From assembly GCF_000270245.1 (NCBI RefSeq), contig NC_015635.1:5022001-5086000 (forward strand): 64,000 nt of DNA, written 5' to 3'. Position numbers and translations under genes: made by a program. A model generated the notes under the pieces. It was not told the DNA's origin, did not search any database, and saw only the letters and a list, made by a program, of their open reading frames with translations. Within the stretch, counting starts at the first letter, position 1, and each line of letters begins with the position of its first letter. This stretch comes from Microlunatus phosphovorus NM-1. Lineage in GTDB: Bacteria; Actinomycetota; Actinomycetes; Propionibacteriales; Propionibacteriaceae. Shown here one piece after another: positions 45,982-63,240 of the stretch.

Positions 45982-46290
45982 TCAGACAGCTACCGCGTCG
46001 AGCAGGACGTCGACCTCCGAGACATTACCCCGGGAGGCGATCACCTGACGGTCGGTCTGGGCACCCGGTGCCAGGGTACGCAGGGTCCACACCCCGTCAC
46101 CGGCGAAGAATCGGAAATGACCGGTCGCCGAGGTGGGCACCTCGGCGGTGAACTCGCCGGTCGCGTCGAGCAGTCGCACGTAGGCGTTGGAGACCGGCTC
46201 ACCGCTGCGCAGCACGCGGCCCTGGATCACGGCCTCCTTGGTCACGTTGATGCCCTGCACGCTGAGTCCGCCCTGGGTGGCTCCGCACAT
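45982..46290 (-). CDS. sseC: DUF1416 (SseC-like) protein
   Basis: 102 aa, begins MCGATQGG as in all DUF1416 proteins, followed by a beta-sandwich (Ig/transthyretin-like) domain: VIQGRVLRSGEPVSNAYVRLLD, TGEFTAEVPTSATGHFRFFA and WTLRTLAPGA. The conserved N-terminal Cys suggests sulfur transfer or binding. It always neighbours the thiosulfate sulfurtransferase gene, as in sseC2-cysA2 of M. tuberculosis. Here it is separated by 123 nt carrying two hairpins, indicating expression below that of sseA. Molecular function unproven. Confidence 0.9.
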   Translation of the reverse strand: MCGATQGGLSVQGINVTKEAVIQGRVLRSGEPVSNAYVRLLDATGEFTAEVPTSATGHFRFFAGDGVWTLRTLAPGAQTDRQVIASRGNVSEVDVLLDAVAV

Positions 46291-46413: not shown

Positions 46414-47262
46414 TCAGGCCTCGCCGGGCTCGTCGCCGAGAGCGACCGGCACGCCCACCAGCGAGCCGTACTCGGTCCAGGAGCCGTCGTAGTTCTTGAC
46501 GTTCTCCTTGCCCAGCAGCTCGTGCAGCACGAACCAGGTGTGCGCGCTGCGCTCGCCGATCCGGCAGTAGGCGATGATGTCGCGATCGAAGTCCAGACCC
46601 GCGTTCTCGTAGAGCTCGCGAAGCTGCTCGTCGGACTTGAAGGTGCCGTCGTCGTTGGCTGCCTTGCTCCACGGCACGTTGATCGCGGTCGGCACGTGCC
46701 CGCCACGCTGCGCCTGCTCCTGCGGGAGGTGGGCGGGAGCCAGCAGCCGGCCGGCGTACTCGTCAGGGCTGCGGACGTCGACCAGGCTGTCGGCGCCGAT
46801 GGAGGCCACGACCTCGTCCCGGAACGCGCGAATCGCGAGATCCGGCTCGCCGGCCTTGTATTCCGTCGCCGGCCGGGTCACCGTCTCCGGGGTCAGCTCA
46901 CGCGCCTCGAGCTCCCACTTCTTGCGCCCGCCGTCGAGCAGCCGGACATCGTTGTGGCCGTACAGCTTGAAGTACCAGTACGCGTACGACGCGAACCAGT
47001 TGTTGTTGCCGCCGTAGAGCACGACGATGTCATCGTTGCCGATGCCCCGTGCGGACAGCAGCGCCTCGAACTGCTCCTTGTTGACGAAATCGCGCCGGAC
47101 CGGGTCCTGCAGATCCAGCTTCCAGTCGATCTTGACCGCTCCGGCGATGTGGCCGCCGTCGTATGCGGTGGTGTCCTCATCGACCTCGACCAGCACGACG
47201 TTCGAGTCGGCCCCATGCTCGACCACCCAATCGGCGTCGACGAGTACCTCTTGCCTGCTCAT
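46414..47262 (-). CDS. sseA: Thiosulfate sulfurtransferase (two-domain rhodanese)
   Basis: 282 aa: two rhodanese domains. The N-terminal one is inactive in catalysis ([21 protein letters not shown]); the C-terminal one has the persulfide Cys loop [13 protein letters not shown] (CRIGERS). It transfers sulfur from thiosulfate to acceptors; homologous to CysA2/SseA proteins of actinobacteria. SD CAGGAG before the ATG. A cysteine-containing leader peptide (47401-47493) precedes it, so synthesis is likely controlled by cysteine supply. sseC follows. Confidence 0.95.
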
Positions 47263-47334
47263 GTGTTGTCAGTCTCCTGTTAGGTGGGTGGCAGTTGCTT
47301 TGTTGCGTCTGTGGATTCGTTGCTTCTGGGAGTA

Positions 47335-47399
47335 CGCACCAGGCGGTGACACACCGCTGGCGCACAGAGATTCGGCGAAGGGGCCCGGATCAACCGGGC
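47335..47399 (-). promoter_or_regulatory. Candidate attenuator hairpins of the sseA leader
   Basis: Immediately after the leader-peptide stop, GCCCGG/CCGGGC (47383-47399) makes a short stem. Further downstream CGGTG/CACCG with flanking GCGCCAG and CTGGTGCG (47335-47363) makes a longer stem. Which of them forms could depend on ribosome position on the Cys codons of the leader. Confidence 0.55.
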
Positions 47400-47400
47400 A

Positions 47401-47493
47401 TCACATGCAGAGACAGAGCGACGAGCGCATCCGGCCATGATCCACGGCCAGGCGGCGGGTGAGCGGATACGCCCACGCAGTCGTCGGGGTCAT
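47401..47493 (-). CDS. Leaderless cysteine-type leader peptide (30 aa) of the sseA-sseC operon
   Basis: Starts with ATG 7 nt after TAGCCT (47501-47506, minus strand), so it would be translated from the first base of the mRNA. Peptide: [20 protein letters not shown] then RMRSSLCLCM and TGA. Two Cys near the C-terminus (CLCM) fit a sensor of charged tRNA-Cys. In mycobacteria, leaderless polycysteine sORFs attenuate the operon containing cysA2 and sseC. Position, gene partners, leaderless start and C-terminal Cys all match. Its ATG overlaps the stop of the MoaD-like frame (ATGA). Confidence 0.78.
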   Translation of the reverse strand: MTPTTAWAYPLTRRLAVDHGRMRSSLCLCM

Positions 47494-47963
47494 GTCGACG
47501 AGGCTAGGGCGAGACCGGCAGCCCCGCCAGGTTCGTCTCTATTAGTGAGACAGATATCCATATAGCGGACGACACCGCCCCCACCTCTCCGCCAGAGCGT
47601 CGACGGCCTCAAAGCGTCCGACCAGCGAGACTCGCCGCCGGCGAACGGCGGCAGGATCTCGGCTCGCACCGGACTGTGCCGCACCTTGTCATAGTCCGCC
47701 GGGTGCACCACGACACCGTCGATGAGCACGGTGCACACCTGCAGGAGACGGTCGAACCGCTCCTGACGACGTCGCTCCGCAGCGGCGCGCAGTGCCGCTC
47801 CCAGCGTGTCGACCGGCCAGATCTCCGACGCAACTCCGGCCACCGTCTTGGCGCCGGCCCAGAAGACAAGCTCAACCTGAACACTTGGCGTATCCTCAGA
47901 ATGCGACGAGGCCCCAGGCGGTTTGCACGCGCCCCGACCGCTTCGGGGTGGATGTGTCGTCAT
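47490..47963 (-). CDS. MoaD/ThiS-like sulfur-carrier protein with C-terminal tail
   Basis: Ubiquitin-like fold. [42 protein letters not shown], and [11 protein letters not shown], where the Gly-Gly would normally be the thiocarboxylated C-terminus. Here no stop follows; the frame runs on for about 50 residues to 47490. The tail overlaps the region that contains the sseA promoter elements. The ATG at 47963 gives a 28-residue N-terminal extension and no other start exists before the fold. A sulfur-carrier role is inferred from the neighbouring sseA/sseC/mshD. Confidence 0.65.
47535..47551 (-). promoter_or_regulatory. Dyad GTCTC-N7-GAGAC upstream of the sseA leader promoter
   Basis: GTCTCTATTAGTGAGAC lies 28 bp from the presumed -10. 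Its TGTCTCAC-AATAG core (minus strand) recurs at 61971-61984 upstream of the cysteine dioxygenase operon, 27 bp from its -10. Probably an activator site just upstream of the -35. Confidence 0.55.
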
Positions 47964-62148: not shown

Positions 62149-62259
62149 ATGACGAAGTTCAACAATCGCGATCCGCGCTCTGCGGGTCTGCACTCTCGAC
62201 GACACGTTGACCTGCACCGGGTGAGCAGTGCGGTCTGTCGGCGTACACGCCCTGCCTGA
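62149..62259 (+). CDS. Sulfur-operon leader peptide, SRRHVDLxRxSSAxC type (36 aa)
   Basis: Frame begins ATG after GAGGAAGCC; MTKFNNRDPRSAGL is followed by HSRRHVDLHRVSSAVC and RRTRPA. The HVDL-R-SSA-C motif is common to many annotated putative leader peptides upstream of sulfur-assimilation operons in actinobacteria. It lies between the SAM-IV riboswitch and the cysteine dioxygenase gene. The single Cys near the end may pause the ribosome when charged tRNA-Cys is scarce. A tail of seven residues follows the Cys. Confidence 0.75.
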   Translation: MTKFNNRDPRSAGLHSRRHVDLHRVSSAVCRRTRPA

Positions 62260-62326: not shown

Positions 62327-62839
62327 ATGCCCAGCGACCACAGCATTCGCACCCGTCCACGCAAGCAGACCCGTCCCCATCGCAATCTCACCGAGATCGC
62401 GACCCACCTGGCCGACCTGACCGAGCTTTGGCAGCCCTTGGTCGAGTACGACCCGGTCTCCCGCTACTACGCGCGTCTGGCCAAGGAACCAGACTTCGAA
62501 GCCTGGCTGCTCACCTGGCTGCCGGGTCAAGGCACCAACTGGCACGACCACGGCGGCAGTGCCGGCGCATTCGTCGTCGTGCGGGGCACCTTGACCGAAC
62601 GTCACGCTTCGGTCAATCCGCTAGCTCACCCTAGAATCGAGCCCGAGCTGCGCGAGCTCAGCGAAGGTGCGCTGCGCGCGTTCGGCACCAAACACATCCA
62701 TGAGGTCACCAACAACGGATGGGAGCCGGCCGTCAGCGTGCATGTCTATTCCCCTGCGCTGGTCGAGATGACCACCTACGCCGAAGAAGGTTCCCGGCTG
62801 CGGAAGCTGAGTTCCCAACTGGCCGGAGTCAACTGGTGA
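62327..62839 (+). CDS. Cysteine dioxygenase family protein
   Basis: 170 aa cupin. Fe-binding motif WHDHGGSAGAFVVVRGTLTE (HxH...E) and a second His in GTKHIHEVTNNG. It would oxidise cysteine, or a related thiol, to its sulfinate. M-P-S-D-H at 62327 preceded by GGAGAG is the preferred start. The rhodanese gene overlaps its stop (GTGA). SAM-IV and the leader peptide upstream suggest that it is regulated by SAM and cysteine. Substrate could also be 3-mercaptopropionate. Confidence 0.88.
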   Translation: MPSDHSIRTRPRKQTRPHRNLTEIATHLADLTELWQPLVEYDPVSRYYARLAKEPDFEAWLLTWLPGQGTNWHDHGGSAGAFVVVRGTLTERHASVNPLAHPRIEPELRELSEGALRAFGTKHIHEVTNNGWEPAVSVHVYSPALVEMTTYAEEGSRLRKLSSQLAGVNW

Positions 62840-63240
62840 GCGCTCTCGATGAGCACCGACGGGCCGCCGGGTCGGCTCGGTCGATCGACGAGTTGCTGGC
62901 CGAGGCCCGCTCCACGCTGGTTCGAGTGACTCCCCAGCAGGCACGCCGGGCCTGTCTCGAGCAGGGGGCTGTGCTGGTCGACATCCGACCGGTCGCGCAA
63001 CGAGCGGAGGGAGGGTTGTCCGAGGCCGTCGTCATCGACCGCAACGTGCTCGAGTGGCGGCTCGATCCCAGTTCTGAGGCCAGGCTGCCGTTCGCCGCGT
63101 ACGACCTGCCGGTGATCGTCATCTGTCAGCAGGGATACTCCTCCAGCCTGGCCGCCGCCACCCTGCAGCAATTGGGCATCTGGCGCGCAACCGATGTGAT
63201 CGGCGGGTACGAGGCATGGCAGGCGGCTGGACTCGGCTAG
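62836..63240 (+). CDS. Single-domain rhodanese
   Basis: 134 aa. Rhodanese fold: VTPQQARRACLEQGAVLVDIRPVAQ, HIPGA-equivalent EAVVIDRNVLEWRLD, and catalytic Cys loop VIVICQQGYSSSLAAATL, ending DVIGGYEAWQAAGL. CQQGYSS is a five-residue loop typical for thiosulfate-type rhodaneses. The GTG overlaps the cysteine dioxygenase stop, so the pair is translationally coupled. The two together resemble sulfide/thiol oxidation modules that pass persulfide sulfur on. Confidence 0.92.
   Translation: MSALDEHRRAAGSARSIDELLAEARSTLVRVTPQQARRACLEQGAVLVDIRPVAQRAEGGLSEAVVIDRNVLEWRLDPSSEARLPFAAYDLPVIVICQQGYSSSLAAATLQQLGIWRATDVIGGYEAWQAAGLG

Follow-up and report, generated by a model that had tools for sequence, protein, structure and literature searches.

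Which part of the short reading frame in front of sseA in Microlunatus phosphovorus NM-1, if any, acts as a sensor? The frame lies in the window, a 64,000-nucleotide stretch of a single-contig genome of 5,683,123 bases. An earlier note had read it as a candidate leaderless cysteine attenuator with a Cys-Leu-Cys (CLC) ending and two hairpins. We compared the frame with its counterparts in the genus and in other actinomycetes. The leader frame is more than chance; its second Cys codon and the hairpins are not. The best explanation of the comparison is that the window sseA leader belongs to an actinomycete-wide leader-peptide family of sulfur metabolism, with a single conserved Cys codon in Microlunatus.

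Leader frame and start codon

The leader peptide is encoded by 30 codons on the minus strand (47401..47493), from an ATG at 47493-47491 to a stop codon at 47403-47401. Its amino acids are conserved and its third codon positions are free. The frame starts, as previously described, after a 7-nt spacer from TAGCCT (47501..47506, minus strand, read from 47506 to 47501). This element resembles a -10 box, and homologous leaders carry TANNNT at 6–8 nt. By sequence geometry, the leader start has the position expected for a leaderless mRNA.

The leader stop codon is separated by 138 nt from the sseA ATG (47262, minus strand). The sseA start codon and its Shine-Dalgarno sequence (AGGAG, 47278-47274) span 47260..47278 on the minus strand. 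Open reading frames and domain matches agree with the operon named in the earlier note: a rhodanese-domain sulfurtransferase of 282 aa (46414..47262, minus strand) is followed by a DUF1416 protein of 102 aa (45982..46290, minus strand). We take sseA and sseC to be the proper names for a rhodanese-domain gene with this DUF1416 neighbour.

The leader ATG does overlap the TGA of an upstream frame (ATGA), another point of the note. This upstream frame (48734-47490, minus strand) includes a stretch that looks MoaD-like in translation; it continues beyond its Gly-Gly and ends at the ATGA of the leader start. An xTGA occurs at the leader start in 17 of 18 genus leaders examined because codon 2 begins with A. 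The upstream open frame has at most 56 codons in 13 of the 17 overlapping loci, and the window is among the four longer ones. From these sequences the overlap looks incidental.

Leader conservation in the genus

SseA is present in all 20 Microlunatus genomes searched, each of which has a 17-residue core upstream of sseA (LTRRxAVDxGRMRSSLC in the window). A distant second SseA paralogue (G001, 46%) was left out of the loci compared. Over the 20 loci (the window and 19 relatives), the core reads L-T/V-R-R-x-A-V/T-D-x-G/C-R/L-M-R-S-S-L/F-C. Mean entropy over the 17 core codons is 0.24 bits at the first codon position, 0.21 at the second and 0.94 at the third; the low values at the first two show that the leader amino acids are under selection. 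An alignment of 18 of the 20 genus leaders (A1, leaving out L016 and L021) has 11 invariant columns, the first of which arises from writing GTG starts as M.

The core ends at Cys27 (UGU, 47413..47415, minus strand), nine residues after the invariant Asp18. Cys27 is TGT in 20/20 genus loci and is our proposed sensor codon. Together with the RRxAVDxxRxxxxL core upstream of it, this single Cys makes up what the leaders conserve. The second Cys codon of the window, Cys29 (TGC, 47407..47409, minus strand), is private to it: Cys at position 29 is absent from every other genus leader examined. From the core to the stop codon, 14 of the 20 genus leaders have a single Cys codon. The remaining six have a further Cys downstream of C27 (four positions in all), and two of these also have an early Cys. 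Core position 10, where the early Cys occurs, is Gly in 18/20 loci.

The CLC spacing, which the earlier note offered as a functional signature, is therefore not one, since Cys29 is private and most genus leaders have one Cys codon. The note had also named loss of the Cys codons in close relatives as grounds for dropping its reading. Such loss is seen for the second Cys only. A homology of the window CLC (C27 and C29) with the CLC of Micromonosporaceae was considered and rejected; the Micromonosporaceae pair aligns with S25 and C27.

One genus genome has a second copy of sseA (L029), and this is the only fetched sseA locus that lacks a leader. The leader may therefore accompany the sseA-sseC locus, not the enzyme.

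Leaders of other actinomycetes

Outside the genus we used the best 80 of 583 SseA relatives (those nearest to the SseA of the window), a sample that leans to near relatives. These named loci include Kribbella, Nocardioides, Micromonospora, Actinoplanes, Streptomyces, Nocardia, Williamsia and others; five duplicate loci of the genus set and enter the counts once. The core precedes sseA in all 80 of these best relatives. A core profile, built from pattern matches in 87/101 of the same upstream regions, found the leader in 100/101 (80 named, the window and 20 genus-side), of which 95 are non-redundant. In 30/95 the distance from leader to sseA exceeds 330 nt, reaching 767 nt.

All 95 sseA leaders have L1, R4, D8 and C17 in the core; of these, R4, D8 and C17 were required by the search pattern, which all profile-found leaders satisfied. 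R4 is encoded by five different codons among the 95. A start codon with TANNNT 6–8 nt upstream was found for 94/95 leaders (at most 25 codons searched). As controls, 13/2640 other ATG or GTG codons of the same regions have TANNNT at this distance, and 1/190 was obtained when the two remaining frames were searched in the same way.

The frame could in principle be a chance or non-regulatory one, and the window peptide, taken alone, has no NCBIfam or Pfam family match. The conservation in 100/101 regions, the leaderless geometry and the codon-level selection weigh against this explanation, which we rejected as barely credible. The search of sseA homologues for conserved Cys codons, suggested in the earlier note, thus upheld the first Cys (C27 within the genus, C17 of the core in all 95 leaders) and not the second.

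Codon choice at the terminal Cys

Core residue C17 is encoded by TGT in 90/95 sseA leaders. The five exceptions are all Nocardia (L158, L164, L170, L171 and L175), with TGT at run position 15 and TGC at 17. Other leader Cys codons are mostly TGC (68/76 at position 10 and 36/41 at position 15), as are the Cys codons of the sseA gene itself in 75 named loci from the best 80 of 583 (TGC 74, TGT 1). The TGT bias has a Fisher p below 1e-30, a value that is only descriptive because the rows are related and not independent. Since other synonymous sites drift freely, shared descent alone is not enough to explain a fixed TGT.

The same codon appears in a wider family of 84 loci, in which the Cys nine residues after Asp is TGT in 83/84. 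We collected 74 of these loci by pattern (TGT in 73/74) and read the other 10 by eye and position (TGT at the fixed spacing in 10/10; six with Met before Asp). Some of the 84 may share organisms with the named loci. As far as these alignments go, UGU is the fixed codon for the terminal Cys, nine residues downstream of the invariant Asp. We found no earlier statement of the UGU feature in a literature search covering mainly open-access papers, which is weak evidence of novelty.

Three poly-Cys leaders (L176, L178 and L179) have TGT more than once within the run, so a single-TGT rule fails for poly-Cys leaders. Six loci (L208, L212, L216, L220, L224 and L229) share a near-identical peptide, VRLWRRVHMDLxRYAGCVCRPSC, with Cys codons TGC, TGT and TGC; the TGT is nine residues after Asp.

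Relation to described leaders

One comparison is with the Ms5788A family (NF042933), which takes its name from the cysA2 leader of M. smegmatis. The Microlunatus leader resembles it in lying before a cysA2/sseA gene and in its leaderless start, RRxAVDxxR core and terminal Cys near the stop codon. It differs in having no Cys run, mostly Gly at core position 10 and scores below the model cut-off. That cut-off is 45 bits; the window peptide gives no hit even at E 10, and 9/18 genus members match, those shown at no more than 23.2 bits. Across the taxonomic family, 0/198 genomes have a match above the cut-off. Eight such leaders were tested against NF042933: two pass (61.1 and 47.3 bits) and three more score 39–43. 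Judged by position and core sequence, the window leader occupies the place of the mycobacterial Ms5788A leader and is a homologous, reduced variant of it. In Rfam the only match is GlsR26 (16.1 bits against 100, E 3), which we took as chance.

The polycysteine attenuator that Canestrari is said to have described in 2020 reportedly relies on an RNA fold that masks the ribosome site of the downstream gene until a stalled ribosome opens it, with expression increasing under cysteine scarcity. The window leader has no run of Cys codons, only C27 and C29. In 2015, a report described a leader containing a Cys cluster upstream of mycobacterial cysA2 (PMC4633059, in the portion available), and the accessible parts of two further papers describe cysteine-dependent regulation or action in M. 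smegmatis (PMC9031893, PMC13236596), the former giving cysteine-dependent elongation as the mechanism.

Seliverstov (2005) predicted Cys leaders before cys operons in Mycobacterium and P. acnes and before cbs in B. longum (PMC1262725, available in part). These are similar to the Microlunatus leader: a short frame, Cys codons near the stop, no terminator and an overlapping taxonomic range. Unlike it, they are described in that part of the source as runs of Cys codons, with the mode of regulation left open. The earlier note had presented the mechanism as new to this lineage, a claim that is weakened by the 2005 predictions and by the NCBIfam matches in other actinomycetes. The cysS attenuator uORFC-8-2 of Rhodobacterales is likewise an upstream frame with Cys codons before a cysteine-related gene; it differs, in the part of the source available, by two tandem Cys codons, a dominant UGC and an intrinsic terminator (PMC8632094).

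Related leaders before other genes

A second model, NF042934 (cis_reg_atten), has a cut-off of 27 bits. It matches 110/148 class genomes at E 0.001, 96 of them above cut-off, and 0/14 control genomes; at E 1, 6/14 controls match and none is above cut-off. There are up to 11 matches per genome. Its members share the Asp-to-Cys spacing and the TGT with the window sseA leader. They differ from it in three ways: the sseA leader falls below the model (no match), many members precede other sulfur genes, and 27 of the 74 typed members have a Shine-Dalgarno-like start (33 are leaderless and 14 unclear).

Within Microlunatus, 11/20 genomes have an NF042934 match above the cut-off, with the downstream gene Pfam-checked in two. 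One match is in the window: a second leader, MTKFNNRDPRSAGLHSRRHVDLHRVSSAVCRRTRPA, at 62149..62259 on the plus strand (30.1 bits, or 31 bits as peptide), with Cys30 as TGT at 62236-62238 and a Shine-Dalgarno-like sequence before its ATG. It is followed by a type I cysteine dioxygenase (62327..62839, plus strand; PF05995, E 1.4e-20) and then by a rhodanese-domain gene whose start we chose (62836..63240, plus strand; PF00581, E 9.4e-12). Searching the genome itself for the exact sseA leader gave one strong match and five weak ones. Among the weak matches is a third leader (L246, LTVRRFVDLARTKSMMC, with TGT) at C1:2505463-2505543 on the minus strand, about 60 nt before a sulfite-reductase-like gene.

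Genes downstream of the wider family were identified by translation as sseA and DUF4395, and by Pfam as DUF4395, cysteine dioxygenase, NIR_SIR, CbiX, NMT1-like and another solute-binding protein. The Pfam scan covered ten proteins, four from the window. DUF4395-like genes directly follow such leaders in class-wide loci (Pfam checked for one).

The peptide is constrained before these different genes as well. In the 84 loci Arg is at D-4 in 84/84 and at D+3 in 83/84 (L086 has Leu), and the D-to-C distance is the same in 84/84; for the 74 loci found by pattern, D, C, an R between D-5 and D-3 and one of R/Q/H at D+3 were built into the pattern. These constraints bear on how much of the leader is needed. 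In a plain tRNA-Cys attenuator, the Cys codon and RNA structure would suffice, the rest of the peptide would be a relic, and UGU would be kept for slow decoding or for pairing. Homology to the Ms5788A leaders, the elongation mechanism reported for mycobacteria (PMC9031893, in the part available) and the Cys runs of some relatives are in keeping with such a device. The fixed Arg residues and Asp-to-Cys distance, the free third codon positions and the single Cys codon of most genus leaders are not, and we think it rather unlikely.

At the other extreme, the leader might be an arrest peptide whose signal is not Cys-tRNA; sulfide, persulfide or thiol oxidation, acting on the nascent Cys or on the ribosome, would be examples. 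Conservation at the peptide level fits this idea. So does the presence of the motif before the cysteine dioxygenase, a cysteine-consuming enzyme, and the rhodanese gene in the window, and elsewhere before sulfite-reductase-like, CbiX-like and solute-binding genes. We know of no sensor of this kind for this leader family. The codon is conserved beyond the residue, which points to decoding, and an arrest peptide of this sort seems improbable to us. A tRNA gauge needs no fixed R, D and R, and an arrest peptide needs no particular synonymous codon; both are conserved, which favours a joint sensor.

Structure and pairing of the leader RNA

All RNA tests cover leaders within 330 nt of sseA, setting aside the 30 that are farther; accessibility, pairing and z-score tests also leave out L022 and L023, where the match begins inside the gene.

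The two hairpins that the earlier note placed before sseA are indeed predicted, one just after the leader stop codon (47383..47399, minus strand) and one at about 47336..47363 (minus strand). Neither has any sign of conservation, and we saw no hairpin after the leader stop that is shared across the genus. The stretch from the leader stop to sseA is marginally more stable than shuffled sequence (z -1.62; 11/200 shuffles as stable) and gives no strong signal across the genus (mean z -0.58, n=18).

There is no terminator-like site or intrinsic terminator in 47150-47700, so the leader is not a transcription attenuator of the classical type, with such a terminator before the gene. One might then suppose coupled transcription control, in which a Rho site between leader and sseA is masked or uncovered by the ribosome as it translates. 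The same idea was put forward for the cys leaders of Mycobacterium and P. acnes, and the Rho-site prediction was called weak in that work itself (PMC1262725, in the part available). With no conserved structure after the leader in the genus either, we regard Rho coupling as very unlikely.

In Micromonosporaceae (e.g. L102, L117, L133 and L155), a GC-rich hairpin begins a few nt past the UGU in most of the leaders folded, and the stop codon falls in the loop or the 3' arm. By eye, some changes in the arms look compensatory.

In Microlunatus, the part of the leader most complementary to the sseA start is codons 20–29, around the Cys codon; the matched start region includes the Shine-Dalgarno sequence and start codon given above. 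None of 5000 circular shifts equals this complementarity, either in Microlunatus (n=18) or in other loci (n=45). We found no coevolution of the pairing in Microlunatus (native -20.61 versus swapped -20.40 kcal/mol, p 0.64). Native pairing beats swapped partners in the 45 other loci (p 0.022) and in 30 CLC-type leaders (p 0.0014), and the latter result also counts in favour of the plain tRNA-Cys attenuator.

Placing a stalled ribosome on the leader has no clear effect on predicted Shine-Dalgarno accessibility (0.267 to 0.288, p 0.087, n=63). Blocking the Cys region gives slightly more accessibility than control blocks (0.312 versus 0.276, p 0.0024, n=63). For the window, predicted accessibility stays at 0.54 with a stalled ribosome and becomes 0.45 with the Cys region blocked. 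These models are only suggestive of sequestration of the sseA start by the Cys region.

Proposed mechanism

The leader is plausibly cysteine-responsive, to judge from its sequence; its regulatory sign and ligand are what we infer. In the joint reading, stalling at UGU when Cys-tRNA is short, helped by the nascent chain, would expose the sseA start. RNA polymerase would start at the leader ATG and a ribosome would load at the 5' end. Under Cys-tRNA shortage it would stall with the wobble-read UGU in its A site, and the VDxxRxxxxL chain in the upper tunnel would prolong the pause. By covering the Cys-codon region, the stalled ribosome would keep it from pairing with the sseA start region, and sseA-sseC would be translated. 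With sufficient cysteine, the ribosome would run off, the pairing would form and expression would fall. No intrinsic terminator takes part.

We give this joint reading about even weight. Against it stand the Microlunatus pairing without coevolution and the predicted accessibility that barely changes on stalling. One Cys codon offers a simple tRNA gauge little leverage. A leader of this kind before a cysteine-consuming dioxygenase does not agree with induction by cysteine shortage, and the window peptide has no match to a curated model.

Implications

Cys attenuators have so far been described as runs of Cys codons, and Microlunatus conserves one Cys codon alone. UGU is nearly fixed over UGC at this codon in the actinomycetes examined, while most neighbouring and sseA Cys codons are UGC. 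A broader proposal, which we put forward tentatively and with more doubt than confidence, is that much of actinomycete sulfur metabolism is under one leader family. Its sensor would be a fixed chain (R-x2-[VIMT]-D-x2-R-x5-C) with one obligatory UGU, a codon selected for its slower wobble decoding, which would determine the pause. Cys runs would be a later amplification and Microlunatus would have the minimal form. Because the same sensor precedes a cysteine-consuming enzyme, it may read sulfur status, not cysteine hunger alone.

If the UGU reading is true, a single synonymous base change should alter regulation, and leaders thought to count tRNA might be sequence-specific arrest peptides. The leader family would also propose regulation for many sulfur operons.

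Genomes of 7–10 Mb, G254, G236 and G298 among them, have 10–11 wider-family matches each, so the leader regulon may be large.
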